Below are positions 6,790 through 31,384 of a stretch of 33,017 nucleotides of DNA, piece by piece. The stretch comes from Flavobacteriales bacterium (GTDB lineage: Bacteria; Bacteroidota; Bacteroidia; UBA10329), in the NCBI GenBank assembly GCA_018402015.1, contig JAGYJL010000029.1, positions 1 to 33,017 on the forward strand, written 5' to 3'. The first letter of the stretch is position 1, and the number at the start of each line of letters is the position of its first letter. Both the position numbers and the translations under genes were made by a program. Under the pieces are notes generated by a model. That model did not search any database and was not told the DNA's origin. It saw nothing but the letters and a program-made list of their open reading frames with translations.

Positions 6790-8616
6790 TTACTCAGCTT
6801 TGGTTCCTTGCATTTCAGCTTCCTTCTTTTTAGCCTCTTCCAAATCAATTGGTTGTGAGTTGAAGCGAGCGGAAACTTCTGGGTTCTTAACACCAAGAGC
6901 TTCAACCTGACGCTGAAGGGATTCGGCTTCTGCAAGTGTGGAGAATGAACCGATGGTATAGATCTTCAATCCACCTTCGGTGGTTTTCATCTCTACACCA
7001 TATTGTGCAATAAGTTTCGACAGTTTATCGAGCTCAATTCGTAGTCGATACTCCTTTAACTCAACTCCATACTGAAGAACATCAACATCTTCAAAATCAA
7101 GTGATACACCCTTTGGTTGATTCTTGGCAGCATCAAATCCAACCACACCTAGGTCTATACCTACTTCAGGAATGTAATCACTGTTAACCCCGAATGCTTC
7201 GTCAATTCCACTTTCAATAAGTTCCTTCTGGCGTTTTTCAGCCTCCTCAAACGTATCGAAATTACCAAGAGTGAACACTGAAATGGAATCATTGACCTTA
7301 TGCTCGACTAGGTCTTCCATTTTAGCAAGTCGTAACTTGATCTGGGTTGGTATATCGTAGTTGGTGTAGGTTCCGACATGCACAGTATAGTCTGAATCAA
7401 CAGATTTCTTCGAGAATAACCAATCCTGATTTACATCCTTCCTAAGTAAGGAAGCGGTATCTTGGCCATAGGTCTTGTAGATATCCTGATAGCTGATTCC
7501 TACTCCGTTCGGATCTACTATTCTTCCTGCAGTAGTTTTCAATTCTTTATCGCGGTAATCAGGAATACCATCTCCATCTTCATCTGCAGGACAACCATTG
7601 GCATCAACAGTGAGGCCTTTTGGCGTTCCGCCACATTTATCTTTAAAGTCTGTTACACCATCACCATCAGAATCTTCCTCAACAAGTTCTCCCAAATTCG
7701 CATATTCCTCGCCAGCTTGGTCGATCTTCGGTGCTTTCTTCTTAAAAGGATCGAATCGGAAAATGAGAGAAAGGCTGGTGTAAATGAATCCGTCATTTGA
7801 AATAAGCGGGGTGCTACCTCCTTCAACATTGTCCATTTTATCTGTTCCCGTGAAGTAGTAATACGCACCAAGCCTTACTGCTACGTTTCTATTGGCGTTG
7901 AAATCGAAACCAGCGCCTACGGGTATAGAGAATGTTGCAATTGGAGATTCTGCAGTCTCTTTGGTCTCGTATTCATAGTCGCGTTCTATAACATTGATGT
8001 TATCAGAAAGTGGGGCAGATTCTGGTTGGTCGCGTATCAGGTTATCCGACCAATAGTAATAATCTCTTCCTTGCGCATCCTGAAGATCCGTGTAAACGTC
8101 AAAATCGGAATAGCCTATTCCCACAGAGATAAATGGTGTTATACCTACAGGACTGTGAATGAGATTTTGGAAGTTGTAAACCAGGTTGGCTCCAATGGAG
8201 AAACTTTCAGCTTGAAAATTTCGAGGAGTGTCATGCAACGAAACATTTTGATTCCAGCTTACCTTGGAAATCATTGCATTCAGATTCAACTCCAGATAAT
8301 TGGTCACATTAGCTCCGATTCCGAAATTATAACCTGGATGACTCCCAATTCGATGTACAGTGGTTCCAGAGTTATCTCGTAGGTCTCCGAAGTAATTCAT
8401 CAGTCCAATACCGCCATGCACGTTTGCCATAAATCGGTAAGGAACTTTTTCCTTGGGTCCTTTGCTCTTGGATTCAATCTTCTTTTCCTCTTTTTTGTTT
8501 GCTTTCGCAACCTCTTCCTTTTTGGCTTCGGAAGGCTTTTGCTCTTCGGAACTTTCCTGAGCATATGCTGGAATCAGGAGAATGAAGGATAGCAAAGTCA
8601 GTATGATCAATCTCAT
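6790..8616 (-). CDS. Outer-membrane barrel protein with TSP3 repeats and two SPOR-like domains
   Basis: A 608-residue protein. Signal peptide about 1-20 (MRLIILTLLSFILLIPAYAQ), then a Lys/Glu-rich stretch (20-58). Residues about 60-300 form a beta-barrel carrying the array's shared motif DAQGRDYYYWSDN. TSP3 calcium-binding repeats (DSDGDGVTDFKDKC, DEDGDGIPDYRDKE) lie at about 315-370. Two SPOR-like domains follow at about 400-480 and 520-590 (YTVHVGTY...ISVFTLGNFDTFEEAEK; GLKIYTIGSFSTLAEAESLQ). SPOR domains bind denuded peptidoglycan glycan, so they probably anchor the barrel to the cell wall in place of an OmpA domain. The frame runs upstream to 8679, but ATG 8616 gives the signal peptide and lies 20 bases after a promoter box. 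The specific function is unknown. Confidence 0.85.
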   Translation of the reverse strand: MRLIILTLLSFILLIPAYAQESSEEQKPSEAKKEEVAKANKKEEKKIESKSKGPKEKVPYRFMANVHGGIGLMNYFGDLRDNSGTTVHRIGSHPGYNFGIGANVTNYLELNLNAMISKVSWNQNVSLHDTPRNFQAESFSIGANLVYNFQNLIHSPVGITPFISVGIGYSDFDVYTDLQDAQGRDYYYWSDNLIRDQPESAPLSDNINVIERDYEYETKETAESPIATFSIPVGAGFDFNANRNVAVRLGAYYYFTGTDKMDNVEGGSTPLISNDGFIYTSLSLIFRFDPFKKKAPKIDQAGEEYANLGELVEEDSDGDGVTDFKDKCGGTPKGLTVDANGCPADEDGDGIPDYRDKELKTTAGRIVDPNGVGISYQDIYKTYGQDTASLLRKDVNQDWLFSKKSVDSDYTVHVGTYTNYDIPTQIKLRLAKMEDLVEHKVNDSISVFTLGNFDTFEEAEKRQKELIESGIDEAFGVNSDYIPEVGIDLGVVGFDAAKNQPKGVSLDFEDVDVLQYGVELKEYRLRIELDKLSKLIAQYGVEMKTTEGGLKIYTIGSFSTLAEAESLQRQVEALGVKNPEVSARFNSQPIDLEEAKKKEAEMQGTKAE

Positions 8617-8636
8617 TGTTAGGGTCTTTGGTGGTG

Positions 8637-8644
8637 CAAAGGTA
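8637..8644 (-). promoter_or_regulatory. -7 promoter box in the 40-bp gap before the SPOR barrel gene
   Basis: The minus strand reads TACCTTTG (TAnnTTTG). No convincing -33 TTG is seen. It would let the last gene of the array be transcribed on its own. Confidence 0.4.
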
Positions 8645-8656
8645 ATCTGTTGTATG

Positions 8657-10498
8657 TTATTCTTCGAAGAATAGATCAATCAATTCATAGATCATTTCTT
8701 CCGTGTACGGAGATTCTCCTCTTTGGAATCTTGCGATCATCTCGTTCACTTCATCCGCTGTAAGTTTTCCATCTCCATTGAAATCAACTTCCTTGAATTT
8801 GTTTGCTAGGAATCTTTCCGTATCCGAGAGGCCATCTTTCTGGTAATTGTCTAGGATGTTCAGTGTGCCATCAATATAGACAGCCATAGTTCCTCCAAAG
8901 TCAATGACTTTAGCGCCTTCCATATATTCTTGGTAGAAGTCGATTAGGTTGAATAACTGAGATACGTTTAATGGAGATACGCCTTCCAACACATCTTCAA
9001 TTACTCGCATTACTTCATCGGCAGTTATGATACCGTCTGTGTTATAGTCAGCATCGACAAATTCTGGCGGAATAGTTGTGCTGATGTTTTCTTCTTTCGT
9101 AATTGATAGCGGTCGGGTAGGAGAGAGGAGTTTCTCATCAACCATCTTCTTATAGACCTTATCAACACTCTTGAATACTTGGTCAACAGAACCTGCTTCC
9201 TTCGGAGTTTGACTATAAACCTCTTTGCTGATCTCTTCAAAAAGCTGGTCAAATTCTCCTTGTTTTTCAACCTGATTCTGAATGTTCAGCATCATGATCG
9301 CCAATTTGGTGGAATCTTCCGCAGTTAAAGGCGCTCTCTTTGCAAGAATTCCGCTAGGATAGATCTTGTGCATATTCGCTCGGATAGTGGCAAGCGAATC
9401 TGCATAATCGGCCAGCATACGCTCATCAGTGAGAGTAACACCATCAAGGTCTACAACGCTTTCTAACTTGGTGGAATCTTCTTTATCTCGGTAATCTGCA
9501 ATTACATCAAGGTCAGAATCAACCGGACAACCATTCTGATCCACCTTCACGCCTGTAGGAGTTTGAGCACATTTATCTTCAAAATCGTTGACACCATCTT
9601 CATCAGAATCAGCCATTTGCATGGCATAGAAGTCAATCTCTTCGTAATAGTTGTCTTTCTGCGTTTTAGTATAACTGCTACCAACTCCTATGCTGTAGCT
9701 AACCGACATAGAAGTGAACAGGAACATATCGTTTCTAGAATTGCCAGCCCTCTCGTCAACTCCAACATCAGAAATATCATCAATAAGATCAGTGAAGGTG
9801 TAATAGAAACCAGCGCTCAGTTTTGCACTGAGTCGTTTCCCCATTTTAAAGTCCAATCCAGCTGTTACGGGTAATGAAAAAGTGAATTGGTCATACTTGC
9901 CAAGTCCGTCAATGTTCTCATCACGAAGATCTGTCTCATAGTTGTAGTCTCTTTGTAAAGCCACGGCTTGTTCAGAATTCGGATCGTTCTGATCTAAACT
10001 CATAATAGAGCCGTCATCCCAATAGAAGTAACGATTCCCATTGGCATCAAACATGTCAGACTTGCTATCGAAATTGATAAAGGAAACTCCAAATCCGATA
10101 AAGGGTTGGATGATTCCGGGCTTTTTATAAAGATGATTGAAGTTATAGCTTACACTTGCCGAACCTATGAAGGTCTCTGATTTGAAATTGAGATTACGGG
10201 TTGTCGAACGCTCATTGATGGTAATATTTCCGTAAATGGCAGTAAGATTGATATCAAAGTAACGCGAAAGATTGGCGCTACCTTCTACCTGAACACCATA
10301 AGTACTTGTGAAAATATGCTGATAGTTATTATCGTTCACGTCTCCGAAAAAAGTAAAAACCCCAGCTCCAATTCCAATTCTAGGTGCTAGAAGGGCGTCT
10401 TTACCGCGATTATCAACGTAATAAGGATTATTGGTTTGTCCTAAGCTAGGCAGAACAGCGAACAAATTAAGGACAGAAAAAAGTAAAATTCTTTTCAT
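8657..10498 (-). CDS. Outer-membrane barrel protein with TSP3 repeats and two EF-hand modules
   Basis: A 613-residue protein. Signal peptide MKRILLFSVLNLFAVLPSLG, then a barrel (about 35-285) with the shared motif DANGNRYFYWDDGSI and the following DYNYETDLRDENIDG block. TSP3 repeats (DSDEDGVNDFEDKC, VDSDLDVIADYRDKE) lie near 298-345. A linker follows that is conserved in its paralogues (DLDGVTLTDERM...DSLATIRA...YPSG). The C-terminus holds two copies of a roughly 45-residue module. Each has an EF-hand loop (DADYNTDGIITADE near 480; DFNGDGKLTADE near 570) and then a helix ending LFNLIDFYQE or IYELIDLFFEE. The usual OmpA peptidoglycan-binding domain is missing. The modules should lie in the periplasm if the barrel has OmpA topology. 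The binding partner is unknown. Confidence 0.85.
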   Translation of the reverse strand: MKRILLFSVLNLFAVLPSLGQTNNPYYVDNRGKDALLAPRIGIGAGVFTFFGDVNDNNYQHIFTSTYGVQVEGSANLSRYFDINLTAIYGNITINERSTTRNLNFKSETFIGSASVSYNFNHLYKKPGIIQPFIGFGVSFINFDSKSDMFDANGNRYFYWDDGSIMSLDQNDPNSEQAVALQRDYNYETDLRDENIDGLGKYDQFTFSLPVTAGLDFKMGKRLSAKLSAGFYYTFTDLIDDISDVGVDERAGNSRNDMFLFTSMSVSYSIGVGSSYTKTQKDNYYEEIDFYAMQMADSDEDGVNDFEDKCAQTPTGVKVDQNGCPVDSDLDVIADYRDKEDSTKLESVVDLDGVTLTDERMLADYADSLATIRANMHKIYPSGILAKRAPLTAEDSTKLAIMMLNIQNQVEKQGEFDQLFEEISKEVYSQTPKEAGSVDQVFKSVDKVYKKMVDEKLLSPTRPLSITKEENISTTIPPEFVDADYNTDGIITADEVMRVIEDVLEGVSPLNVSQLFNLIDFYQEYMEGAKVIDFGGTMAVYIDGTLNILDNYQKDGLSDTERFLANKFKEVDFNGDGKLTADEVNEMIARFQRGESPYTEEMIYELIDLFFEE

Positions 10499-10538
10499 AG
10501 GCGATTAAGCACAAATTCAGCTAAAAGTAACCAAACCA

Positions 10539-12053
10539 TTATTCTTGGTCAAAATAATAGTCTATCAGATCTTGAATGTCCGAAACGGACCTAACGGCCT
10601 CTCCCTCAAATAGTAAGTCAATGAAGTGAAGTACCTCACTCGGAGATATCCAATTGTTCTTGTCTAGATCTGCCCATAAGAAAGTTCCGGTTTGCTTTGG
10701 CTCAGATTCAGCGATAGATTCAAGACTGAAAATATCCTTCTTGTCATCTATCTGTTGATTTTCAGAAACTAGTGCTTCATTGCTTTCTGAAATCGCTGGT
10801 GCGATCACTTCGTTAGGCTCCTCAGTTTCTATTAATTCATTTGGTGTTGAACTGTTTTGGTTGGAACCTAGAGACGCCTTCATGCCAGCGTATTCCTCAT
10901 TATTGACTAACCCGTCTTCTTTCAATTTTTCGAGTTGATCTTGAAGGACAACATTTTTAAATGATTCGTTATCATCAACTTGAGTAGGCTGTGTTGACGC
11001 ATATTTTATTTCATCAATGATCAGATTCTTCCTCTTGACATCTAAAGAAGTCGAGATAGAAGAAGATTCAGACGAAATGACATCTTTCGTTTTGTTCAGG
11101 TTGGTTGCAGCCAAGCGAAGAACTGATTTCAATTCCTCAGAATTGTTGGATGATCTGATTGTTTCTTTCGATGATTCAAGAAGTGTTGTGGTATTGGAAA
11201 CCGAGGATTCAACGATTTTAAAATCAACCATTTCATCCTCTGAATTCACGGCATCCAATTGTTTATTGGCCCGCTTCAGATCAGATGTAGTTTCAATTAG
11301 CGATGCTTTCGTCAGATTCAGATTCTCTAGTGCAGTTTCAAGAATCTTTATTGCTTCTTCTTTTGCTGCCTTTAGGTCTTTCTTAGTGTCGATGGTGGTC
11401 TCTGCGAGAGAGGTAAGTTCATTCCTTCTTTTACTGAGGCTTTCGTTAGATAGTTCGTTCGTCTGGGCCAGCATTATCATCGCGTTTTTCAACAATTGAG
11501 AGGCGGCTGCTAGGTTGGTATTCTCCAACGATTGTTCATTGATTATTTCTTCGCCATTAGACTTGGCTAATTCGGTATTCGATTGATCTATTGTTATCAA
11601 AAGCCGCTGATATTCCGCTTGTTCCAGGACGCCTTGATCACGTAATGCATCCAATTCTTCTTTCACAGCTTTAATTTGTTCAATTGAGTTCAAATTTTTG
11701 CTCAGAACCTGCTCTGTTCTTGCTCGTGCAACAGTTTTTCGTGCAATGAGAATAGACTCATCAACCTGTGTCGATTCTTGGGCAAGAATTTCCTTAGTGT
11801 GCAAAAGATTTCTGGTCGTAATATTTAGTGCTGATTTCAATTCCTCAGAACTACTTGAGGCCGCAATTTGAGCTTTAAGTGATTCCATTGTTGGTACGGT
11901 CTCTTCAACCACAGCTTTCAGTTTTTCCGCGCTAGAAAACTTGTTCTCTAGGTTATTGCTTGATAGATCGGTGGATGCTGAATTGATATTATTGGCTGTT
12001 TGATTCAATTCAGAAGATGTTTCAGCCAGTTCTAAAATTGACTTTTCAATCAA
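10539..12053 (-). CDS. Coiled-coil region with C-terminal EF-hand module (3' part of a frameshifted barrel gene)
   Basis: A 504-residue frame rich in Ser, Glu, Lys, Leu and Asn, strongly predicted as coiled coil. It has two related segments about 240 residues apart (SSSSEELKSALN...NLLHTKEI and SSNNSEELKSVLR...NLNKTKDV), each followed by a related ELDALRDQGVLEQAEY or QLEKLKEDGLVNNEEY block. The last 47 residues are the array's EF-hand module (ADLDKNNWISPSE, then IDLLFEGE and DLIDYYFDQE). It has no signal peptide, and its only upstream start is a TTG overlapping the stop of the barrel frame. With the preceding frame it has the same overall plan as its neighbours, except that TSP3 repeats are replaced by coiled coil. 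It is therefore most likely the second half of one gene of about 877 residues. Confidence 0.75.
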   Translation of the reverse strand: MIEKSILELAETSSELNQTANNINSASTDLSSNNLENKFSSAEKLKAVVEETVPTMESLKAQIAASSSSEELKSALNITTRNLLHTKEILAQESTQVDESILIARKTVARARTEQVLSKNLNSIEQIKAVKEELDALRDQGVLEQAEYQRLLITIDQSNTELAKSNGEEIINEQSLENTNLAAASQLLKNAMIMLAQTNELSNESLSKRRNELTSLAETTIDTKKDLKAAKEEAIKILETALENLNLTKASLIETTSDLKRANKQLDAVNSEDEMVDFKIVESSVSNTTTLLESSKETIRSSNNSEELKSVLRLAATNLNKTKDVISSESSSISTSLDVKRKNLIIDEIKYASTQPTQVDDNESFKNVVLQDQLEKLKEDGLVNNEEYAGMKASLGSNQNSSTPNELIETEEPNEVIAPAISESNEALVSENQQIDDKKDIFSLESIAESEPKQTGTFLWADLDKNNWISPSEVLHFIDLLFEGEAVRSVSDIQDLIDYYFDQE

Positions 12054-13173
12054 TTTTATTGATTCTGCTTGGCATCATCTTTAAGTTCCTTTTAGACGAA
12101 AGTTCAAGTTTGATAATTGCAGTTATTTGTTGGCTGTTGTCTACTAAGGATTGTTCAGATGCTTCTGAGATTTTTCTAATGGACTCCGATGCAGCGGATA
12201 ATTGTTCTGTTAGGGCCACCAACGCATCTTTTTTCTCGGATTTGATTTTTGGTTTTACCGAGTTTTCTGAATCTGAAGGCTTACCGTTTGATTTGACTTC
12301 TAGATTATCAAATCGAGGTGCTGGCTTAGCAGATGGTTTCGTAGTTCCAAGAAAGATACTTACGCCAACAGAACCAAAGAGGTGGTTGTCATATCCAGAG
12401 TTTCCTGACCTTACACCGAGGCTTTGGTCATTCACATTATCTATAAGGTCTGTGAAGTTCAGCACGTAAGCAAATGATGCATTGATACCTACATTCTTAG
12501 ATATCTGAAAACGAATGCCTGCATTGAAAGGCATTGTAAAAGCTGTTTGAGAATATTTTCTAAATCCATCCAAATTGGCATCTCTAAGATCGGTTTCATA
12601 TTCAAAATCCCGTTCCAATACAGTTGCTTCTGAAGGGTCAACAGAACCTTCAACTTCGGCATATATCAGCCCATCGCTCCAGTATTGGTATGCAACTCCA
12701 TTTTCGTTTATCAAATCTCCTTTAGAGCGAAAAAATACCGCTCCAATACCGAATCCAACGTAAGGACGAATGAGCTGCCTTCCGTTTGCTTTAGGTTTTA
12801 AAAGAGGGAAGAAGTTGTACTCTACATTAAGATGCTGACTGAACAGCGATGTTCTGTAATTCAGATTGGTAGTGCCGCGTTGTTCCTCGCCCAATACAGA
12901 TCCAGTATATAATTCTAATGATAGATCAAGGAATTTGGCAACCCTTTGCGTAATTGTGAGCTGATAACCCAGTTGTCGAAAAGGCGATGGACCTTTACTT
13001 GAAAGTGATACATCAGTAAATCCGTGGTTGAACCCAACATTCACGCTAATTGTAGGGAGAGGAATAAGGACATTGTCCTTGGCAAGTGTATCTGACGCAT
13101 TTTGTCCGAACGACACAACGCTGCTCGTTAAGAGCAGAAGAATAGAAATCAGTCTATACGTTTTGTAGTGCAT
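12046..13173 (-). CDS. Outer-membrane barrel protein (5' part of a frameshifted gene)
   Basis: A 375-residue frame with a signal peptide (MHYKTYRLISILLLLTSSVVSFGQ) and a barrel (about 35-290) carrying the array motifs NENGVAYQYWSDGLI and DFEYETDLRDANLDGFRKYS. From about residue 320 it becomes coiled coil (LTEQLSAASESIRKISEASE), then ends abruptly in an unrelated tail (KMMPSRINKID). The overlapping frame continues the coiled coil (ESIKLIEKSILELAETSSEL) and ends in an EF-hand module. The two frames together span 2635 bases, one more than a multiple of three, so a single inserted base (or two deleted) would explain the split. This part alone would lack the C-terminal module present in all its paralogues. 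Confidence 0.8.
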   Translation of the reverse strand: MHYKTYRLISILLLLTSSVVSFGQNASDTLAKDNVLIPLPTISVNVGFNHGFTDVSLSSKGPSPFRQLGYQLTITQRVAKFLDLSLELYTGSVLGEEQRGTTNLNYRTSLFSQHLNVEYNFFPLLKPKANGRQLIRPYVGFGIGAVFFRSKGDLINENGVAYQYWSDGLIYAEVEGSVDPSEATVLERDFEYETDLRDANLDGFRKYSQTAFTMPFNAGIRFQISKNVGINASFAYVLNFTDLIDNVNDQSLGVRSGNSGYDNHLFGSVGVSIFLGTTKPSAKPAPRFDNLEVKSNGKPSDSENSVKPKIKSEKKDALVALTEQLSAASESIRKISEASEQSLVDNSQQITAIIKLELSSKRNLKMMPSRINKID

Positions 13174-13190
13174 TACGAAGTGTCAAGATA

Positions 13191-13221
13191 AAAAATAACC
13201 CAGGCTTTTTCGGCCTGGGTT
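13191..13221 (-). terminator. Rho-independent terminator inside the array
   Basis: On the minus strand a perfect 9-bp stem (AACCCAGGC/GCCTGGGTT) with a seven-base loop is followed by ATTTTTT. It lies after the SPOR protein gene (stop 13246) and before the coiled-coil barrel gene (start 13173), so it splits the array into two transcription units. Confidence 0.85.
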
Positions 13222-13245
13222 AGAATCTTTCGCAGCTATGTTGTC

Positions 13246-14301
13246 TTATTGACCTGCAATTTCCAAAGCTTCTTTTACATGAATTCGGACTCCATCATTG
13301 TATGCAGTAACGAATGGACCTTCTACACCGCTGTTATCTCTTAGTTCATTGCTGAACGTTTTTGCTGGTCGGTAAGAACCGAATTCTCCAACAACATATT
13401 TCTTCAATCCTTCATGTTCTTCTATAACTACAGCCTCATTAAGTCCATATTTCTGCTGGAAGAACGAAGGGTCAACCTGATTTGGTCCTGCTGCTATTTG
13501 AACTCTGAAAACTAGACCCGGCTTAGATTTAAGCATGGCATCGTTATAGTCAGAAGCAGGAGTTGGCTCTGCAACCGGTTTAGGTGCAGGAGTAGGTTTT
13601 GGCGCTGGAGTTGGCTTAGGTGCTGGAGTTGGAGCTGGTTCTGCATCGGCAACCTCTTCAACAACCTCTTTTACTTCTTCTGCAACTTCTTCAACTACCT
13701 CAGCAACTTCTTCAACTACCTCCGCAACTTCTTCGGCAATCTCTTCGACAACTGGCTCTGCTTCAACAACTTCTTCGGCAGGAGCGGCTTCTTCTCTTGC
13801 AGCTTCTGCTGCAGCTTCCTTGGCCTGCTGATCAGCTAAAATTTTATCCATTGCAGCTTGCTGAGCAGCCTCTGCTTGATTTGCTTGAATAGCTATTATG
13901 TCTTTTGGAATGATGAATTTCTCAGTTTCGTTATCCTTTATATACGCAAAAGAGCCTTCAATAATCTGATTACCACTTAAGGAAGCATCAACGTTGATTT
14001 TATAAGATACTTTGAAGTCTCCATTAGGTAATGCCATCCAAAGGAATTTGACTTTTTGATCTTTAAAAGAAAAAGTTGCGTTCGCAGATTCTCCTGCTTC
14101 TGCGGTAAAACCTGGAGGCAGAATCTGTTGCAATTTTGCGAATCCTGAGACATCTCCTTTGGCGATGTCAAGTTCCATGGTAAAGCTGCTGCCCGGAGCT
14201 GCTGTTGCTGGTAATTTTGTAGTAACAGCTACTTGTGCTAACAGAGAGCCTGAGAACAGTATAGTAGCAAACGCAGTAAGTAGAGTAGATCTTGTGATCA
14301 T
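13246..14301 (-). CDS. Secreted cohesin-like/SPOR protein with Glu-Val and Pro-rich linkers
   Basis: A 351-residue protein. Signal peptide MITRSTLLTAFATILFSGSLLAQ. Residues about 24-135 look like a cohesin-type beta-sandwich (PGSSFTMELDIAKGDVSGFA, LPPGFTAEAGESANATFSF, QKVKFLWMALP, FKVSYKINVDASLSGNQIIE). The fold is my inference from strand pattern; no catalytic residues are visible. Then come an Ala/Gln/Glu helix, an EEVAEVV repeat (about 180-220), a PAPKPT repeat (about 222-245), and a C-terminal SPOR-like domain (about 262-345, VFRVQIAAG...KKYVVGEFGSYRPAKTFSNEL). It probably binds peptidoglycan through the SPOR domain and holds the beta-sandwich out on an extended linker in the periplasm. 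It is third in the transcription unit, 47 bp after a barrel gene and just before a terminator. Confidence 0.82.
   Translation of the reverse strand: MITRSTLLTAFATILFSGSLLAQVAVTTKLPATAAPGSSFTMELDIAKGDVSGFAKLQQILPPGFTAEAGESANATFSFKDQKVKFLWMALPNGDFKVSYKINVDASLSGNQIIEGSFAYIKDNETEKFIIPKDIIAIQANQAEAAQQAAMDKILADQQAKEAAAEAAREEAAPAEEVVEAEPVVEEIAEEVAEVVEEVAEVVEEVAEEVKEVVEEVADAEPAPTPAPKPTPAPKPTPAPKPVAEPTPASDYNDAMLKSKPGLVFRVQIAAGPNQVDPSFFQQKYGLNEAVVIEEHEGLKKYVVGEFGSYRPAKTFSNELRDNSGVEGPFVTAYNDGVRIHVKEALEIAGQ
13575..13745 (-). repeat. Tandem coding repeats (18-bp and 21-bp units)
   Basis: About three 18-bp units encoding PAPKPT (13575-13632) and about three 21-bp units encoding EVVEEVA (13682-13744, the first two differing only in the last base). 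They form the linker of the SPOR protein and could vary in copy number by slippage without breaking the frame. Confidence 0.8.
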
Positions 14302-14348
14302 GCTGTTTGTTTTACTTTTTTATTGGGTGTCTAAGGTATTATTTTTTG

Positions 14349-15749
14349 CTATTGGTCGAAGAAATAGTCAATGAGGTCCATGATATACTGTGCACTGACT
14401 GGTAATTCTCCGTCAAAGAACATGTCGATGGCGTTATACACTTCTCCGACAGAAATGGTTCCATTTTTGTCAACATCCACTAATTTATAATCCGCCCCAG
14501 CAGATCCCGGTGAATTCACATTATCCCTAATAGGTTTTGGCTTATACACGTCCGCCATATCAGGATAGACTTCAAACATTTGAGCCCGGATAGTTGCCAC
14601 TGTATCATCTTCAGACAAACTTATCATGTCATCAGTAAGTCCAACACCATTTTCATCAACATTCAGATTCGGATCGGTATTAGGTTCATTGTCTGCGTAA
14701 TCATAAACACCATCACCGTCAGTATCAAGAGGACATCCCTTTTCATCAATCGTGGCATTTTTAGGGGTTTCTGGGCATAGGTCCAAAATATCCGCCACGC
14801 CATCTCCATCGCTATCTCCGTCCAAGGAGGCAAATTCCATATCGTCATACACACTTTTCTTTTCCTTTTTAGGAGTAAAGAAATCAAAGTGGTACGAGAT
14901 AGAAGTGAATAGGAACATGTCGTTCAATTCGTCACCTTTTCGTCCTTGAACACCATCTTTGGTATAGTTATCAATTAAGTCAGTCAATGTGTAGGAGAAG
15001 GTAGAGGTCAATCTGATCATTGATCGTTGTGAAACGCGAAAGTTCAATCCGAATGTCACAGGAATGGCAAAGGCGAACTGGGCATAATTCCCTAAACTGT
15101 CTAGGTTCGCTTTCCTAAGATCAGTTTCATATACATAATCCGCTCTAAGTATATCTGCTTGATCAATATTGGAATTGTCAGCAAGCTGCGGAAGACTGCG
15201 AATAGTACCATCTGACCAATAGTTGTATGCTACACCATTTTCGTCTTTTAGGTCGCCTTTCGTATCAAAATTCACTGCGCCAACACCGACAGAAATAAAA
15301 GGATTGAGGAAACGCTTAGCACGGAGAATTCCTGCAAAACTGTATTCAGCGTGCAGGTTGAAAGTGACTATATCGCTACTAAAATTGAGTTGTTGCTCTC
15401 TGTCACGAGCAGACATTTTTCCATAAGCTACATCGAACCTTAACCCCCAAGATGGAGTGAAATTTTTAATTACGCTTGCCTGAAAACCATAATTGTTGAT
15501 GAGAGGGTTTGTACGTTCGTTATTGTTAACCTCTCCGAAATAGTTGAAAAATCCAGCACCAAGACCGATTATTGGTTTATAAATGGTGTTCTCTTCGTTC
15601 CAAGTTTTTCTTTCTTCTCGTTTAGCGTCTTTAGCCGCTTTGGCCTCCTCAACAGATTGTCCATTGTTTACTGATGAATCGGAATCTTGCGAACGACCTG
15701 TAAAGGCCAATCCTACAATAAGAAGAAAGGTGAGAAGTCTCGTCAACAT
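14349..15749 (-). CDS. Outer-membrane barrel protein with TSP3 repeats and C-terminal EF-hand module
   Basis: A 466-residue protein. Signal peptide MLTRLLTFLLIVGLAFTGRSQ, a charged N-terminal stretch (EEAKAAKDAKREERK), then a barrel (about 50-300) with the shared KDENGVAYNYWSDGTI and DYVYETDLRKANLDSLGNYA blocks. TSP3 repeats (DSDGDGVADILDLC, DTDGDGVYDYADNE) lie at about 310-360. The conserved linker (DENGVGLTDDMI...DTVATIRAQMFEVYPDM) follows. The last 45 residues are an EF-hand loop (DVDKNGTISVGE), a helix ending DMFFDGE, and a final helix DLIDYFFDQ. It starts 9 bp after the upstream paralogue, so the two are cotranscribed. It probably sits in the outer membrane with the module in the periplasm. 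Function unknown. Confidence 0.87.
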   Translation of the reverse strand: MLTRLLTFLLIVGLAFTGRSQDSDSSVNNGQSVEEAKAAKDAKREERKTWNEENTIYKPIIGLGAGFFNYFGEVNNNERTNPLINNYGFQASVIKNFTPSWGLRFDVAYGKMSARDREQQLNFSSDIVTFNLHAEYSFAGILRAKRFLNPFISVGVGAVNFDTKGDLKDENGVAYNYWSDGTIRSLPQLADNSNIDQADILRADYVYETDLRKANLDSLGNYAQFAFAIPVTFGLNFRVSQRSMIRLTSTFSYTLTDLIDNYTKDGVQGRKGDELNDMFLFTSISYHFDFFTPKKEKKSVYDDMEFASLDGDSDGDGVADILDLCPETPKNATIDEKGCPLDTDGDGVYDYADNEPNTDPNLNVDENGVGLTDDMISLSEDDTVATIRAQMFEVYPDMADVYKPKPIRDNVNSPGSAGADYKLVDVDKNGTISVGEVYNAIDMFFDGELPVSAQYIMDLIDYFFDQ

Positions 15750-15758
15750 GTATAGTAC

Positions 15759-17147
15759 TTATTGCTCGAAGAAGAAGTCGATGAGGTCGTGCAATTTAGC
15801 CGCAGAGAAATCAAGTTCTCCTTCGAAGAATGCATCAATTGCCCACGTGATTTCATCAGCAGAGATGAATCCATCCCCATTTTGATCAACCACTGTAAAA
15901 TCACCCAATTCCTGAGATTTTTGTTCTTCACTTGGCTTATCAAATGAGTAGTAGTCGCCAACTCTTGGCATCTCCATACTTGGATAAGCTTCATAAACAA
16001 TATTGTGTGCAACTGCATTCGTGTCAGGTAGTACGATAAAATCAGGGTCAATGGTTACACCGTTTACATCAACCAGTGCAGAATCTGCAGAGGTTTCTGC
16101 ATCTCTGTAGTCTGGAACACCATCGTTGTCTGAATCAAGCGGACAACCAGAAGCATCAACTGCAGCTCCAGCTGGTGTGTTTGAACAAAGATCTTCAATA
16201 TTGATCACACCATCTTCATCATCATCAGCATTGTCTAAGGCAAGGAAGTCAAACGAATCGAACATTGAAGAATCTGGCTTCGGACTTTTAGCAGCAATGT
16301 GATATGCAAAACCGATAGAAGTATATAGGAAATGATCCGTCTGTTTTCCGTTCTTATATGCATCCAAGTGGTCGCTTAAACTCCAATTGTACGTAGCGCT
16401 TATATCTGCGTGGAACTTATTTCCAAACTTATAACGCAATCCAAGACCGAAGGGGAAGGTCAACGCTCCTGTTTCGAGCTTGCTACCATCGAAAGACTCT
16501 TTAACCTCAGTTTCATATTTATTATCGATGTCTAGAACGTTGGCGGTTCCTAGATTCTCTTGGGTTTTAGCACGATCTCTAACAGTTCCATCATTCCAGT
16601 AGAAGTAATCGCGACCTTCTGCATCCTTCAAGTCAGTGCGATGGGTCATTTGGAAGATGTATCCAACGCCTCCGAATAAATAAGGCGAAAAATTAGAGGA
16701 TCGATTGATGAAAAGGTTGTTATCCAGATACACATTTACCTTGAAATCAAGGTTCATGATCTCGGTTTCAATATTTCGATTCTCGGTAGCGATTGGTGAA
16801 CGCTCAGTTTCTCCTAACCATCCGTACAGGAAGTTGAGTGAGAAACCCACTGCGCTGAAAGTTCTGTGCTCAATCCCTCCGTTAATACCCCATTTCCAAT
16901 TGGTTGTATTGTAAAGGTTGATGTCATCAGAAATGTCATCACCAAGTAAAGAAAGGTTACCTGCGCCTACATAGATGTAAGGCAATTTATTATCGTAAAA
17001 AGGAGGACGAGGCTTCTTCTCCTTTTTTTCTTTTGGTTCTTTTTCGGTTTTCTCTTTTTTGGCTTTTTCGTCAGCAGACGAATCTTGTGCGTAAGAACCA
17101 AAGGAAACCGTGAGTATGAGAAATGATAGTAAAAGTCTAAGCTTCAT
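15759..17147 (-). CDS. Outer-membrane barrel protein with TSP3 repeats and C-terminal EF-hand module (first gene of the array)
   Basis: A 462-residue protein. Signal peptide MKLRLLLSFLILTVSFGSYAQ, then a very Lys/Glu-rich stretch (22-47) like that of the last array gene. The barrel (about 50-310) has KDAEGRDYFYWNDGTV. TSP3 repeats (DDDEDGVINIEDLC, DSDNDGVPDYRDAE) and the linker (DVNGVTIDPDFIVL...YEAYPSM) follow. The C-terminus has EF-hand loop DQNGDGFISADE, helix DAFFEGE and final helix DLIDFFFEQ. No standard promoter box was found in the 118 bp upstream, which hold no gene; TATTTTTA there is one base off the consensus. It heads the unit that includes the next barrel gene and the SPOR protein. 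Confidence 0.87.
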   Translation of the reverse strand: MKLRLLLSFLILTVSFGSYAQDSSADEKAKKEKTEKEPKEKKEKKPRPPFYDNKLPYIYVGAGNLSLLGDDISDDINLYNTTNWKWGINGGIEHRTFSAVGFSLNFLYGWLGETERSPIATENRNIETEIMNLDFKVNVYLDNNLFINRSSNFSPYLFGGVGYIFQMTHRTDLKDAEGRDYFYWNDGTVRDRAKTQENLGTANVLDIDNKYETEVKESFDGSKLETGALTFPFGLGLRYKFGNKFHADISATYNWSLSDHLDAYKNGKQTDHFLYTSIGFAYHIAAKSPKPDSSMFDSFDFLALDNADDDEDGVINIEDLCSNTPAGAAVDASGCPLDSDNDGVPDYRDAETSADSALVDVNGVTIDPDFIVLPDTNAVAHNIVYEAYPSMEMPRVGDYYSFDKPSEEQKSQELGDFTVVDQNGDGFISADEITWAIDAFFEGELDFSAAKLHDLIDFFFEQ

Positions 17148-17265: not shown

Positions 17266-17979
17266 TTAGAAGTTTGGCTTGATGCTGTACTTGGAATAGA
17301 AGTCTGTAATATGCTTCACGGCTTCTTGCGATGTGTTGACCAACGACATGAGGTCAAGGTCCGTCTCATTGATATTGCCATTGGATGCAAGCATGGTTGC
17401 TTTGATCCAATCCATTAGACCAGACCAATACTCGGTGCCGACTAATATGATGGGGAATTTGGCAACCTTACCTGTTTGAATCAATGTTAACGCCTCGAAT
17501 AACTCATCCATCGTTCCGAAACCACCTGGCAGTACCACAAAGCCTTGCGCGTACTTGGTAAACATGAGTTTACGTACGAAGAAGTAATCGAAGTTGATGA
17601 ATTTGTCCATATCAATGTATGGATTAGCGTGCTGTTCGAACGGAAGATCGATGTTCAATCCAACCGATTTACCATTTGCTAAGCGTGCACCTTTATTTGC
17701 CGCCTCCATAATTCCAGGACCTCCGCCAGTAATTATACCGAAACCATTAAGCGACAACTGATAGGCAATATCCTCTGCCAATTGGTAATATGGATGGTGG
17801 GGTTCTGTTCTGGCCGAACCGAATATCGACACGCACGGACCGATACGAGCTAAGGTTTCAAAGCCTTCTACAAATTCGGCCATGATCTTGAAGATCTGCC
17901 ACGAATCTTTACTTTTTATCTCGCTCCAATCTTTTGGGGCCAGAGCCTGCTCTATGCGCTTTTCGTTGTCTTCGCTCAT
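17266..17979 (-). CDS. LOG family protein (TIGR00730-type Rossmann fold)
   Basis: A 237-residue cytoplasmic protein with the two LOG-family motifs, GGGPGIMEAANKGA and PGGFGTMDELFE, which form the nucleotide-binding and catalytic site. Family members hydrolyse nucleoside 5'-monophosphates to the free base and ribose 5-phosphate (cytokinin-activating in plants); some bacterial proteins act on AMP or other nucleotides. The start was chosen at ATG 17979 (MSEDNEKRIEQAL); the frame also offers a TTG at 17994. It follows uvrA on the same strand with a 45-bp gap and may be in the same unit. A biological substrate cannot be inferred here. Confidence 0.9.
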   Translation of the reverse strand: MSEDNEKRIEQALAPKDWSEIKSKDSWQIFKIMAEFVEGFETLARIGPCVSIFGSARTEPHHPYYQLAEDIAYQLSLNGFGIITGGGPGIMEAANKGARLANGKSVGLNIDLPFEQHANPYIDMDKFINFDYFFVRKLMFTKYAQGFVVLPGGFGTMDELFEALTLIQTGKVAKFPIILVGTEYWSGLMDWIKATMLASNGNINETDLDLMSLVNTSQEAVKHITDFYSKYSIKPNF

Positions 17980-18024
17980 GACTAAACTTTCCAATAAAAC
18001 TAACGCAAAGTGCTAATCAATGTT

Positions 18025-20874
18025 TTACATCAACCCTAAACCCTCCAATTCCAGCTTCAGGTATTGAGAAGTAAACCCTTTCCCAGATGCCGCTACTTCC
18101 GTTGGAGACCCTTTAGCTATGATCTTACCGCCACGCTTTCCACCTTCAGGACCAAGGTCTATGATGTGATCCGCACTACGTATAATATCAAGGTTGTGCT
18201 CTATGACAAGTACAGTATTACCCTTGTCTGTAAGACGGTTCAGCACTTCTAGCAGGATACGTACATCTTCAAAATGTAAACCTGTACTTGGTTCGTCTAA
18301 AATATAGAAGGTGTTTCCTGTGTCGCGTTTCGAGAGTTCTGATGCGAGCTTAATACGCTGCGCTTCACCTCCAGATAATGTAGTTGAACTCTGCCCTAGT
18401 TTTATGTAGCCCAGACCGACATCCCTGATGGTCTGTATCTTTTTTAAAATGGATGGAATGTTCTCGAAAAAATCCACTGCTTCATCAATGTTCATGTCCA
18501 GCACGTCTGAAATGGATTTTCCTTTATATCGTATTTCCAGTGTCTCACGGTTATACCGATTGCCATTACAGCTAGGACACTGGATGTGTACATCAGGCAG
18601 GAAATTCATCTCAATGGTCTTGAGACCAGCACCTTGGCACTCTTCGCACCTGCCGCCTTTAACATTGAATGAGAAACGACCTGGCTTGTAGCCGCGAATT
18701 TGCGCTTCGGGCACCATGGTAAACAGGTTGCGTATGTCTGAAAACACGCCCGTGTATGTAGCTGGATTACTTCGTGGTGTTCGACCAATAGGGCTTTGGT
18801 CAATGGCAATTACCTTATCAATGCGTTCCAGTCCAGCAATACTGCCATATGGCATGGGTTCTTTTTCGGCCCTGAAAATGGCCTTGTTAAGAATAGGGTA
18901 GAGGGTTTCGTTAATTAAGGTCGATTTGCCACTACCCGAAACTCCAGTAACACAAATAAATGTTCCTAATGGAAATTCTGCAGAAACGTTATTCAGATTA
19001 TTACCCTTAGCACCGCTTATCCTTAGCGTGTAGCCACTGCCTTTTCGATATTCCTTTTTTGGAGGAATTAGGAAACTTCCGTTGAGGAATGATGCAGTAA
19101 GCGAATCGTTGGCAAGCATTTCCCGTGCGGTTCCCTGCGCAACTATTTGTCCACCATGCACACCTGCCTTAGGTCCAATGTCTATGACGTGGTCGGCAGC
19201 CATCATCATGTCCTTATCATGTTCAACTACTATAACAGAGTTACCAACGTCTCTCAGTTTCTTAAGCGCATCAATCAATCGCTGATTGTCGCGCTGGTGC
19301 AATCCTATGCTTGGTTCATCAAGAATGTATAGAACACCAACCAATTGAGAACCGATCTGTGTGGCAAGGCGAATACGTTGTGCTTCACCACCTGAAAGCG
19401 ACCGTGCAGGACGATCAAGCGAGAGATAATCCAATCCTACATCTAAGAGAAACTGAACTCGGGTCTGTATCTCTTTGACTATTTCGTTGGCAATAAAAAG
19501 TTGTTTTTCATCCAGCGTATCGGCAAGATTACCGAACCAGTTTTGCAATTCTTGTAGATCCAATGCGCTTACCTCTGCAATGTTCTTACCTGCCAAGCGG
19601 AAATAGAGTGCTTCTTTTTTGAGTCGAGCGCCATTGCATGATGGACAGCTTTTTCGTTGCGTAAAACTTGCAGCCCATTTTTGTAAAGATTTGCTTGCGT
19701 CATCTTCTGCTTGGCGCGATATGAAGTTGACAATCCCTTCAAACGAAAGCGAATACGAACTTGCGTTTGAATTCACATCCTTAACCTTGAAAACCTCGCT
19801 ACTTCCGTACAAGATTACATTCAGTGCTTCTTCGGAGATGTCTTCGATAGGCGTTTTTAGGTCAAACTCATATTTTTCTCCTATTGCTTCCAACTGACGG
19901 AAAATCCAATTGTTCTTAAAATCTCCGATCGGGGCAATTGCCCCTTGTGCAATGGAGAGTTTCCTGTTTGGAATGATCTTGTCTTCTGTTATTTCAGCAA
20001 CAGTGCCAAGGCCGTTGCAATGATTGCATGCACCGTATGGCGAATTAAATGAGAAGAAGTTAGGTGCTGGTTCATCGTACGCAATTCCCGTTGTTGGACA
20101 CATTAGCGACCTGCTGAAAAACCGTACATCTCCTGAGTCATGATCCATCGTCATCATGGAACCTTTGCCGTGTTTCATGGCCATTTGAACCGAATCGGAA
20201 AGGCGCTGCGTACTCTTGGAATCAACCTTAACCCGATCAACAACAACCTCAATGTCATGAATCTTGTAACGATCGAGCTTAATGTTAGCGTCAATATCTA
20301 AAACTTGCCCATCTACGCGTACTTTCTGAAAACCTTGACGTTGTATCTGAACGAATAGCTCGCGGTAATGTCCTTTTCGTCCTTTTACTACCGGGGCAAG
20401 TAAAAGCACCTTTTTCTCGTTCAGATCTGTTTTAATGATTCGAATGATCTCTTCATCCGAATATTTAACCATCATTTCTCCGGTGTTGTAGCTATAAGCG
20501 GTAGCAGCCCGAGCATACAACAAGCGCACTAGATCGTAAATCTCTGTTACTGTTCCAACGGTTGACCTAGGGCTTCGGTTGGTCGATTTCTGCTCGATGG
20601 AGATAACTGGACTGAGCCCCGTGATATTGTCAACATCAGGCCGTTCCAATGTGCCAAGAAACTGCCTCGCATAGGAAGCGAACGTTTCTATGTACCGTCT
20701 CTGACCTTCAGCATAAATGGTATCAAAAGCGAGTGACGATTTTCCACTGCCACTTAGGCCTGTGATTACCACTAGCTGGTCGCGCGGAATTTTGACGTCA
20801 ATATTTTTCAGGTTGTGAACCCTTGCGCCATTGACCTCTAGGAAAGTTTCTTCGCTTGCGATACGATCACTCAT
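18025..20874 (-). CDS. uvrA: Excinuclease ABC subunit A
   Basis: A 949-residue damage-recognition ATPase of nucleotide excision repair; it loads UvrB onto distorted DNA. Two ABC ATPase modules are complete: Walker [10 protein letters not shown] at 39-47 and GVSGSGKST in the second half, each with an LSGGEAQRI signature (LATQIG and LASELS follow). The second zinc finger has its CxxC pairs ([17 protein letters not shown]), as does CPSCNGARL in the first half. The insertion-domain finger is incomplete: it reads [10 protein letters not shown] where E. coli has CPxC, a feature I recall from other Bacteroidota. ATG 20874 matches the family start; it overlaps the end of the upstream transglycosylase gene by 8 bp, suggesting translational coupling. 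The frame extends to 20934 but without family similarity. Confidence 0.96.
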
Positions 20875-21889
20875 CGCCCTCCGGAGTTGAGAGAGTGTCA
20901 AGAACTGCCCTGGCGGTATCCACTTGGAGTTCAATTTCTGTGGAACTGAAATCGTGGTAGCCAGTTTTAGGCAGTTTTACTTTGTATCGCTTACCCGATT
21001 TATTGGTGAGATAAGATTGACGCATCCAAGGATTGAAAATCTTTAGGATCTTGTAATTGATGTCTTTGTCTGAAGCAAATTTGGCAAGATCGGTAACGGA
21101 TGTGTCAACGATTAATTCGTGCACATCCTGAGGCATGTAAAGGTCTTTCAATCGGTAGTGAAAACCGTATTTGGTAGGATGTTCCAGAATTTCCTTTGCG
21201 GCTAAAATGCGGAAGACATAACGACTGGTTTCGTCATTCAGCAATAGGTCGTAATAGTTTTTCACATTCTGACGGTCCAATTGCTTCTCCACTCCGTTCA
21301 TTCCCATATTGTAACTCGCTGCAGCCAAGGTCCAATTGCCATAACGATCATGGGCGTCTTTCAAATACTTACAGGCAGCCTCAGTAGATTTCTCCACATC
21401 ATATCGTTCATCCACAACAGTATTTGTTTCAAGCCCAAATTCCTGTCCAGTGGTTTTCAGTAGTTGCCAAAATCCTGCAGCCCCTGCTGGTGAGACGACA
21501 TTCATCAGTCCACTCTCAACCAATGCCAAATACTTGAAATCTTCTGGAATACCATTCTTTTTAAGAATCGGCTCAATTACAGGGAACCACTTGCTTGCGC
21601 GTTTGTGGTAAAGCAAACTGTTAGATTGCCAATACGTGTTAACCAATAATTCACGGTCCAAACGTTCATATACGTCCTGATCATGAACAGGTACATCTTC
21701 TCCGCAGAAACTCAGGTCTTCTGGAATTGTGATGCTGTAGATCCGATAATCTTCGTTGAATTTACTTTGGTAGCTCTGATCTTCGGACCGATGATCGTCA
21801 CTTGAATACGTGAAAATCTCAAATCCGAAAACTGCTAACAACACAAGAATCGCAGTGGCAAGAACTCTATGCGATCGGTCGGTGGTCAT
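20867..21889 (-). CDS. MltD-like membrane-bound lytic murein transglycosylase
   Basis: A 340-residue protein with one N-terminal hydrophobic segment (about residues 9-27) and an SLT lysozyme-like domain at about 105-240. The catalytic Glu is Glu125 in ALVESGL. The other SLT blocks are SPAGAAGFWQLLKTTGQEFGL, ERYDVEKSTEAACKYLKD, and AAASYNMGMNGVEKQ. It should cleave the MurNAc-GlcNAc bond of peptidoglycan from the periplasmic face, giving anhydro ends. No LysM repeats follow, unlike E. coli MltD. The ATG overlaps the previous stop by 4 bp (ATGA), and its own 3' end overlaps uvrA. The grouping with a polysaccharide-initiating enzyme suggests wall opening for surface polymer export, which is an inference. 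Confidence 0.9.
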   Translation of the reverse strand: MTTDRSHRVLATAILVLLAVFGFEIFTYSSDDHRSEDQSYQSKFNEDYRIYSITIPEDLSFCGEDVPVHDQDVYERLDRELLVNTYWQSNSLLYHKRASKWFPVIEPILKKNGIPEDFKYLALVESGLMNVVSPAGAAGFWQLLKTTGQEFGLETNTVVDERYDVEKSTEAACKYLKDAHDRYGNWTLAAASYNMGMNGVEKQLDRQNVKNYYDLLLNDETSRYVFRILAAKEILEHPTKYGFHYRLKDLYMPQDVHELIVDTSVTDLAKFASDKDINYKILKIFNPWMRQSYLTNKSGKRYKVKLPKTGYHDFSSTEIELQVDTARAVLDTLSTPEGDE

Positions 21890-22977: not shown

Positions 22978-23014
22978 GAATTAACTGGAATGATTGAACA
23001 ACTAATGTATCTCG

Positions 23015-23557
23015 TTAAAACTGACTTTCAAAGTCACTTAAACAATGGAGCATTCCTGGTCTTTTTCCGAAACTATCCAGTTCTCGATTTCCCAGTTTAT
23101 TCTAACTCGAGACCATTCCATCGAATACTTCCTTCTGCTTGTTTGTTATACCTTCGGTACAATCATAGAAAAATAGCGTTTTGTCTTTTAAGGTTTTGAA
23201 ACTATATAGGCAAAACCTGGGGGTATCAAGTGCTAATTTGTTTTCATCATTGAGTTCCACGAATAATGCTTCCCAAATGTGTCAGATGACTTTTCTGATA
23301 TCTACTGCCACATCAAGCACAACCCCTTGCAGCACTCGAATTAATTTACCCTGTGCATACGGTGGATTTTGAGAATTAAATCCACGAACCACTCCTTTCT
23401 GAGACTGTGAAATATTTGTTTGTGCAACTTCAATTTTCAGCCTAATTCAGCCCAAGAATCTTTTATTGAGATCCTTCAAAAAAAGTAACCTCTTTCATCA
23501 TAAATACGATTAATTATAAGTACCAGATCTTTTTAGACCTGTTTCAACCAGCTTCAT
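23015..23557 (-). pseudogene. rfbC: dTDP-4-dehydrorhamnose 3,5-epimerase, frameshifted
   Basis: No frame is open along the whole gene, but the minus strand gives the RfbC family in pieces: MKLVETGLK (start ATG 23557), IYDERGYFFEG, SQKGVVRG, NPPYAQGKLIRVLQG, VLDVAVDIRK, ELNDENKLAL, LFFYDCTE, WEIEN and SDFESQF before TAA 23015. The span of 543 bases is a normal length for the family (about 180 residues). The enzyme makes dTDP-L-rhamnose precursors for surface polysaccharides. Several one-base indels, often in short homopolymers, break the frame. The partner genes rfbA, rfbB and rfbD are not in the window. It follows the BY-kinase stop by 9 bp. Type is given as pseudogene only because the sequence as written cannot encode it; sequencing error is likely. 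Confidence 0.8.
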
Positions 23558-23566
23558 TCCTTGTAA

Positions 23567-25991
23567 TTAATCGTATTTCCCTTTGAACAGTCGGGTAAGA
23601 AAATTGCCACTTCCTTCGTTCTCGTCTTCTTCGTAATAGCATAGCCGTATCCATAGCCATGCCCATAGCCGTACCGTAACCATATCCGTAACCATATCCG
23701 TAGCCATGTCCATATCCATAGCCAGATTTCTGCGTTTCTTGCCCGTTGAGGATGATAGATAGGTTCGATATGTTTCATGGCTAGACGTGCTATATTGTCT
23801 ATGAATGGCCGCTTAGAGTAATTGGCTCTTGCTATGTAAATTGGGTAATCAGCTTTTTGCATATTGAGGATACCATCCGTTCAATGCCACAAGGGGGGTT
23901 GTCAATGATAGTGATGTCGTAAGTTTCCTTCAATTCCGCGATTACATCATCCATTCAGGGTTGATGATAAGCTCTGAAGGGTTGGAGGAATAGGCCCTGC
24001 ATTTAATAAAATCCAGATTCTCTAGCGTACTTGATTTTATACATTCTTCAACTAGTCCTGCCCAATTAGCAAGGTACTCATACCTCTATCGTTCTCACAT
24101 TGAAGCCAAAGGTGAATTTTCGGTTTCCTCATGTCAAGGTCAAAATTATAACCTTCTTACCAGCGTAAGCAATAATTACCACCAAAGATTAATCGCAACA
24201 AATGTCTTTCCTTCTCCAGAAATTGTACTCGTAATGGATATCAGCTGACCCTTCGGCCTCAAATGTATTTGAGATTGGTCCGAATAGACCGGAAAGCGGA
24301 AATCATCGATTTAGGATTCTTATCCACTAAAGCTGGGAATTCCGGAATGTCCTTTTTGTATCCAGGCTTCACACAAGACTGAAATATCGATGCATTTTTA
24401 CAACGTCCCGAATAGATGTTATCTGATTGAATAGCAATTACTTGAACAGAATGATACCCAAACTTATCATCAAAGCGCCAACGAAACTGATGGTAATAAC
24501 TGACTTTTTATCTGGAAAGATAGGGTTGCTAGGTACAGATTATTGCTTCAATATTCTATTGGCTGAAACGTATCCTGCTTTTGAGAATTGAATATTCTGC
24601 TTTTCTATCTACCAGGGTATTATAAAAACTCTCATTAACACGATTAATCCTCAACAAGCGCGAATATTCGATTTCATCGTAGGTTGAACCTTTCTTTGCT
24701 GTAATAGCCTTATAAACCTCCAATTGTTTACGAACTTCACTTAGTTTATTATCCTAAGTTGTTCTTTACCGCTATTGGAAGCTCTCTATGATCGGTTTTT
24801 CTGTATGTCAATTTGATAAAGGAGAGCTTTAACCACAGGTTGCTGTTTTTCCTTCACTACATAAAGCATTTGTTCTTTTGTAGCAGGTCTGAAGAGTTTC
24901 TAACGATTTGGAGATCGTTCCTTCGTATTCCGAACCCCGAACAAAGACACCAGTCGATAAACATCTAAGTTTTCATTCTGGTTAACTTCTTGCTCAACTT
25001 CCGAAAGAAGTTTCTGTTCCACCACCGAAAGTTGAACGATCGTCTTCCAGTTCGTCCAGTCTTTATTAGACGGAAGACCTAAGTTTCTCGTATCTTTTGT
25101 CTCATCAATGCTCATACTGTTTTTTCTAAATCGTTGAGATACTATTCTCCGATTCATTTTCTAATCTGTCATAGATGCTTAGCTAATTGACTATCGATGA
25201 ATTGTAAAAATTATTGGCTGATTCTGCTTTTCGCTCCTTGTCGTTATTTACCAAATCTATCTATCTGATTCACAATGTCCTTGGTCTTCATGGCATTATG
25301 ATGCTCATCTTTATGTTGATGGTCTTGGCGAATTCATTAAGAATTTCCACTTCCAATTGGACATATACTTGTTCAGATTATTCTGTTTGCTGTTCAGGAT
25401 AATGTAGAACTGGTTTTGGTCATCATTCTGATTCTGAAGTATACGTTCGTAATTGTTGATTGAAAATTTAAACGACATCTTCGGTTTTCAAGGTGTCAAG
25501 TAACGAACTTCTCGAGCTAGATCATCTCAAGCGAGTATTCTAAAACCGCTTTGGTAATCATCAAGAAAACGGATATTTATAGGCTGATTGTAAATGGCAT
25601 CGTTGAAAATTTCGTAGGATATAGAAAGGAGATGTTTTGTAAAGTTCCGGAGCTTAAAACCTCACCCTTTATCACTAACTCATCAAAGGAGTTTGGATAA
25701 GCGACTCTTCAATGGAAACCGTAGAACAATGAAACTCGATTTCCTCATGAATGGTTTGTGAAGATGTTGATTCGGTTTGCTTAGCGCATTATTTCGTGTG
25801 TCATGCCCTAACTGAACGGTGGCAACAGATTGGTACACCGGGGGCGTAAAACGCAAGTACAAGAATGCGACAAACGCGAAAAACGTGAACAGAATTACCA
25901 CAACAAGCACATTCTGACGCGTGATACTGAGTATTAGTCCGATATCAACCTCATCATTAATGAGCGCTATCTGTTTGTTCTTAGTTTCCAA
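23567..25991 (-). pseudogene. Wzz/BY-kinase polysaccharide chain-length tyrosine kinase, frameshifted
   Basis: Pieces in alternating minus-strand frames give a complete Bacteroidota Wzc-like protein of about 808 residues. The N-terminal Wzz part has a membrane helix (DEVDIGLILSITRQ, VLVVVILFTFFAFVAF, PPVYQSVATVQL). The periplasmic part is recognisable (NDAIYNQPINIRFLDDYQSG; LLSEVEQEVNQNENLDVYRL). The kinase domain has Walker A STISGEGKTFVAINL (24204-24225 area), Walker A' LDMRKPKIH, and IIDNPP. The C-terminus is a YG-repeat Tyr cluster followed by YYEEDENEGSGNFLTRLFKG and TAA at 23567. It would control polymer length and export through autophosphorylation. Many indels split it (for example ACAAAAGAAC near 24870, where one more A restores the frame). 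The first codon in the open frame is TTG 25991, so the true start is uncertain. Confidence 0.82.
23638..23734 (-). repeat. Hexanucleotide Tyr-Gly repeat at the BY-kinase C-terminus
   Basis: About 16 units of the form TATGGN/CATGGN on the minus strand encode alternating Tyr-Gly (with His or Ala variants). It is the autophosphorylated tyrosine tail of the kinase. One or more indels within it shift the frame, giving the Trp/Leu/Ile-rich translation in another frame. Confidence 0.75.
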
Positions 25992-26742: not shown

Positions 26743-26760
26743 TCGATACTTTGGTTTGGC

Positions 26761-26768: not shown

Positions 26769-26800
26769 GATTTAATCGTGCGGCAGCGGTGTCGATTGTT

Positions 26801-29992: not shown

Positions 29993-31384
<1,392 letters not shown>

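Follow-up and report, generated by a model that had tools for sequence, protein, structure and literature searches.

A possible cohesin/dockerin-like docking system in the periplasm of uncultured Bacteroidia, based on EF-hand modules of outer-membrane barrels and a sandwich-SPOR protein

Outer membranes are known to be attached to the cell wall either covalently through lipoproteins or by wall-binding domains such as OmpA/Pal. What, then, is the role of a small EF-hand module that ends a series of outer-membrane barrels just where an OmpA domain would be expected? This question is raised by a gene cluster in the window analysed here, i.e. the whole 33,017-nucleotide contig (C131) of a MAG assigned to Bacteroidia (3.08 Mb, 83% complete), the congeners of which are labelled Flavobacteriales.

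A cluster of barrels around a sandwich-SPOR protein

The cluster consists of six consecutive minus-strand genes, which encode five PorG-like barrels and one protein with a signal peptide, a beta-sandwich and a SPOR domain. The gene order is barrel-TSP3-module, barrel-TSP3-module, sandwich-linker-SPOR, barrel-linker-module, barrel-TSP3-module-module and barrel-TSP3-SPOR-SPOR. Since this order is kept across families, and the module and sandwich HMMs give E-values of 1e-17 to 1e-46, the features of the cluster exceed what chance would produce. They are as follows.

15759-17147, minus strand: PorG-like outer-membrane barrel with TSP3 and a C-terminal EF-hand module
15762-15902, minus strand: EF-hand (duplicated F-hand) module of the first barrel
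14349-15749, minus strand: PorG-like barrel with TSP3 and a C-terminal EF-hand module, directly upstream of the sandwich-SPOR gene
14352-14492, minus strand: EF-hand module of the second barrel
13246-14301, minus strand: secreted sandwich-linker-SPOR protein, 351 aa
13888-14244, minus strand: beta-sandwich domain, cohesin-like in its predicted fold
13255-13533, minus strand: domain of the sandwich protein assigned by sequence to the SPOR family
12046-13173, minus strand: third barrel, the 5' portion of a gene that congeners carry as one ORF
10539-12053, minus strand: 3' part of the third-barrel gene, with a long linker and a C-terminal EF-hand module (10545-10685)
8657-10498, minus strand: barrel with TSP3 and two EF-hand modules (8924-9064, 8660-8797)
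6790-8679, minus strand: barrel with TSP3 and two divergent SPOR domains (about 7168-7392, 6832-7077)

The Y-x-Y-W-(S/N/D)-D motif by which the initial annotation had recognized five paralogous barrels is indeed present in all of them (YYYWSD, YFYWDD, YQYWSD, YNYWSD and YFYWND). Their nearest curated family is T9SS PorG, with E-values of 1e-8 to 1e-17 for the NCBIfam profile T9SS_PorG and scores of 33-65 bits that lie below the cut-off of 130; the match to Pfam OMP_b-brl likewise falls just under its cut-off. No match to an OmpA peptidoglycan-binding domain was found in any of the six proteins of the window. Four barrels end in EF-hand modules, as had been described, one of them being encoded by a gene that is frameshifted here and another (8657-10498) carrying two modules, but the two SPOR domains of the fifth (6790-8679, its true start probably being an internal ATG) had been overlooked.

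The third barrel and the module-bearing ORF that follows it form a single ORF in five congeners (L037-L039, L041 and L043). In the window, the match runs on from frame -1 into frame -2, and the junction requires at least two single-base changes near positions 12050-12110. This split is probably a consensus error rather than a real lesion, because the contig holds further genes broken over several frames. These are genes for polysaccharide export/chain length and a glycosyltransferase (23000-27500) and for dihydrolipoamide dehydrogenase (29988-31384), pointing to many indel errors in the contig consensus. A low-complexity stretch of repeated YG/TDM-type codons (23544-23880) lies inside fragmentary coding region. 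The cluster is flanked by LOG-family (lysine decarboxylase-like) and uvrA genes (17266-20934), a conserved neighbourhood that flanks the cluster or its remnant elsewhere too (L182, L183).

The EF-hand module and the beta-sandwich

The module is 46 residues long. In 145 distinct modules, its loop follows the consensus D-x-[DN]-x-[DN]-G-x-I-[ST]-x-x-E, with calcium ligands that are conserved almost without exception (D1 100%, D/N3 99%, D/N5 99%, E12 100%), and is succeeded by a helix ending in FFEG and a second one ending in LIDYFFEQ (helices 18-30 and 37-52 in the predicted structure). The halves 12-27 and 31-46 resemble each other at an offset of 19 and at none of the other offsets that were compared (mean BLOSUM 1.31 versus negative values elsewhere; z 4.9; 0 of 5000 column shuffles); the first calcium loop is intact and the second is absent. 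The module is thus a duplicated F-hand with its second calcium loop lost, and its anatomy is dockerin-like: it has the two tandem F-hand repeats that characterize dockerins, and one of their two calcium loops. A direct sequence link to dockerins is weak or absent: Pfam Dockerin_1 marginally matches three of 38 modules (best E 0.012) and EF-hand families score higher; the dockerin reference sequence used for direct comparison was approximate.

In 116 of the 145 cases, the module ends at the stop codon or one residue before it. Modules unlinked to the cluster terminate a MORN-repeat protein (L086) and PorE/CHU_0125-type proteins with TPR, PD40 and OmpA domains, the latter scoring below both NCBIfam cut-offs. 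The module precedes the OmpA domain in L088, barrel proteins of L076-L078 have both SPOR domains and modules, and a 95-aa ORF (L183:1442-1726, minus strand) comprises a signal peptide and little beyond the module, at a place where its relatives have a barrel gene. Among the loci compared, we found no natural protein that holds both the module and the sandwich. PorE is a periplasmic protein whose OmpA domain binds peptidoglycan (PMC7192894), and deleting chu_0125 impairs the integrity of the outer membrane (PMC5891637). Because modules follow OmpA in PorE-like proteins, we infer that the module is located in the periplasm.

The initial annotation took the EF-hand modules to replace the OmpA linkage, which is wrong as a general statement: carriers of the PorE/CHU_0125 type keep their OmpA domain, so that the module is an addition to OmpA rather than its replacement, and one barrel of the operon has a SPOR pair instead. 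Nor do we believe that the modules themselves bind peptidoglycan or lipid and so stand in for OmpA directly, with no protein partner. Although they occupy the OmpA/SPOR position in paralogous barrels, they are unlike any known wall-binding fold and also follow intact OmpA domains, and such binding, extremely improbable in our view, would leave the dependence of the module on the sandwich gene (see below) unexplained.

The sandwich protein (13246-14301), situated amid the barrels, has the architecture previously ascribed to it, i.e. a signal peptide, the beta-sandwich, an extended EVVEEVAEV/PTPAPK linker and a SPOR domain. Sequence comparison assigns the C-terminal domain to the SPOR family, with profile PF05036 matching 12 of 21 orthologues (best E 2.8e-7) and the SPOR domain of CwlC (1x60) as the best match in PDB; the window's own copy, when searched alone, falls below the Pfam threshold. 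A SPOR protein with four tandem sandwich domains adjoins a barrel-module gene in another locus (L109:5917-8220). In several families (L054, L055, L148) the short N-terminus of the sandwich protein is very hydrophobic (MLKYIALLFNTVALLIYQFFFA); instead of being cleaved off as a signal, it might anchor the protein in the inner membrane.

AlphaFold models of the sandwich from two families have a pLDDT of about 97. A Foldseek search of PDB retrieved the cohesins 2xdh, 2vo8 and 2w1n for the first model, 2vo8 having the highest query TM listed, and 2w1n and 2xdh for the second. The target TM of 2xdh and 2vo8 is 0.55-0.67, and other Ig-like folds rank equally; the non-cohesin matches include domains of CLIPPER, YcnI, complement C3 and alpha-2-macroglobulin. 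The top matches of two independent models therefore do not refute the cohesin-like fold proposed for this domain, but neither do they set cohesins apart from other Ig-like folds. Pfam matches among 22 members are weak and favour bMG10 (12/22), the GBS104 Ig-like domain (7/22) and DUF11 (2/22) over cohesin (1/22, at E 0.07). A sequence search of PDB found no relative of the sandwich, and hhalign found no match to one cohesin sequence (approximate). Apart from the single weak cohesin-profile match, no sequence homology to cohesins was detected. Judged from the models, the sandwich is cohesin-like by fold class, its membership in the cohesin family being unproven.

The Pfam matches would also agree with an alternative in which the sandwich is a common Ig-like domain (bMG10/DUF11-type) and the module serves PorG/PorE-type envelope proteins as a C-terminal cap stabilised by calcium, or as a sorting tail; so would the exactly C-terminal position of most modules and the resemblance of the barrels to PorG. 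Co-occurrence of the two domains would then come from common T9SS-rich uncultured lineages, an explanation that we consider quite unlikely in view of their distribution.

Distribution and pairing of the two domains

Profiles of the two domains were searched against 395 genomes of Bacteroidia, of which 180 contain the sandwich and 109 the module, with 106 having both and 212 neither (Fisher p about 2e-42, for genomes that are not phylogenetically independent). At the family level, 28 families have both domains, seven the sandwich only, about 41 neither and one the module only, the latter being represented by a genome with a contig break (G332). In a phylum-level draw excluding the window's own genome, which leaned to high-quality genomes and overlapped the set of 395, the module was found in 0 of 296 genomes and the sandwich in 1 of 296.

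Three genomes have the module without the sandwich. In two of these (G007 and G332) a contig break falls inside the sandwich gene, whereas G294 is a real exception, with no sandwich even at E 10 and a module that scores lowest among those compared. Counting the contig-break genomes as carriers, the sandwich protein accompanies the module in 108 of 109 genomes; hence EF-hand modules do not commonly occur without the SPOR protein, a point on which the initial annotation had made its interpretation depend. The converse fails, as 74 genomes with the sandwich have no detectable module, and in seven families this holds for every genome sampled; within several families, too, there are sandwich-bearing genomes without the module, the reverse case being seen once. 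The module implies the sandwich and not vice versa, which amounts to a near-obligate dependence, and this asymmetry would be expected if the module were a ligand that depends on a more ancient receptor. Persistence of the sandwich without the module in 74 genomes means that binding the module is not its only role. Shared lineage by itself would not predict such a one-way absence of the module within families, nor the 212 genomes that lack both domains.

Across many loci, the gene immediately upstream of the sandwich gene is usually the one for the module. In some of them the two genes are in one frame, and we folded the natural read-through as a single chain with stops read as Gly (alignments of 135 and 128 rows), a signal-peptide-like linker separating module and sandwich. 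The pTM is 0.67 for L043, from the window's genus, and 0.59 for L045, from another family, compared with a rough estimate of 0.55-0.58 for two domains that are well folded but unplaced; the former model hints at a placement of the module relative to the sandwich and the latter does not. A mirror-tree comparison gave a partial r of 0.55 (p 0.0005) for the module and the first sandwich and 0.07 for the second, the former value being driven by divergent loci (0.27 without them) and reduced to 0.17 (p 0.05), no better than for the second sandwich, with full controls (32 pairs). Co-evolution of the module with the first sandwich was dropped as main evidence, the signal not being specific under stricter controls. 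The divergence ratio of first to second sandwich is 0.79 with the module and 0.93 without it, and some sandwich lysines are specific to module-bearing loci, both observations being confounded by phylogeny.

The two domains may belong to one tethering complex without touching each other. The modules would then bind one another, the TSP3/barrel-SPOR protein or some further partner, and the sandwich would act as a spacer or bind the SPOR-tailed barrel. Genomes without the module keep the sandwich protein (sandwich-sandwich-SPOR) followed by the barrel protein (barrel-TSP3-SPOR-SPOR(-SPOR)), a core pair that would accordingly be older, and docking in the fusion models is not confident in one of the two families. 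Yet the module is never found without the sandwich, G294 excepted, and the dockerin-like duplication and the cohesin-like fold would have to be a coincidence, so we regard such an arrangement as somewhat unlikely.

A putative tether and its relation to known systems

We prefer docking of the module on the sandwich because of the module's dependence on the sandwich, its internal duplication and the fold of its putative partner; as the best single explanation of all three, docking has an even chance of being correct. The operon would build a tether between the outer membrane and peptidoglycan, a role that its parts make probable. The barrels would be located in the outer membrane, and both the SPOR protein and the barrel with the SPOR tail would attach to denuded glycan strands in the wall. 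On the other barrels, and in some lineages on PorE/CHU_0125-type proteins too, the calcium-loaded modules at the C-terminus would dock onto the cohesin-like sandwich of the SPOR protein. One wall-bound adaptor might thereby hold several different outer-membrane proteins in the manner of a snap fastener. Calcium loading, direct contact and the tethering role are all what we infer from these data. The complete reading, a calcium-dependent, cohesin/dockerin-like plug-and-socket in the periplasm by which a wall-bound SPOR adaptor captures barrels and PorE-type proteins in a broad range of uncultured Bacteroidia, has a probability of roughly 0.4. It retains from the initial interpretation the cohesin-like fold and the pairing, strengthened by the module's dependence on the sandwich and by its internal duplication, an argument that the initial annotation lacked, and abandons the replacement of OmpA.

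If true, an adaptor with exchangeable clients would connect outer membrane and wall by a different principle, the cohesin-dockerin idea would move into the periplasm, and T9SS-related proteins (PorG-like barrels and PorE-like scaffolds) would gain a common docking point. We found no description of such a module-sandwich pair in the literature.

The barrels differ from T9SS PorG, apart from their low scores, by long periplasmic extensions made of TSP3 and the module. With OmpA-type barrels and OmpA proteins of the PorE/CHU_0125 type they would share a peptidoglycan link through the periplasmic C-terminal part, and some PorE-type homologues carry the module after their own OmpA domain; the barrels of the window, in contrast, have a putative adaptor-binding module or SPOR domains in place of OmpA. 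SPOR-domain proteins such as FtsN, DamX and CwlC likewise end in a SPOR-family domain that follows a flexible linker, whereas here a cohesin-like sandwich precedes it and further SPOR copies reside on outer-membrane barrels. A close parallel is offered by cohesin-dockerin pairs, both the cellulosomal type I and the non-cellulosomal ones (cohesins 2vo8, 2w1n and 2xdh of C. perfringens and Archaeoglobus): a small C-terminal calcium module built as a duplicated F-hand, an anchored protein that carries a beta-sandwich as its scaffold domain, with cohesins among the best structural matches of the latter, and one scaffold for many module-bearing clients. The present putative pair differs in having no detectable sequence homology, in keeping one calcium loop, in being apparently periplasmic instead of extracellular, and in using a SPOR domain as its anchor. 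If our reading is true, it works like a cohesin-dockerin system while departing from those families in two respects, its sequence and its missing second calcium loop.
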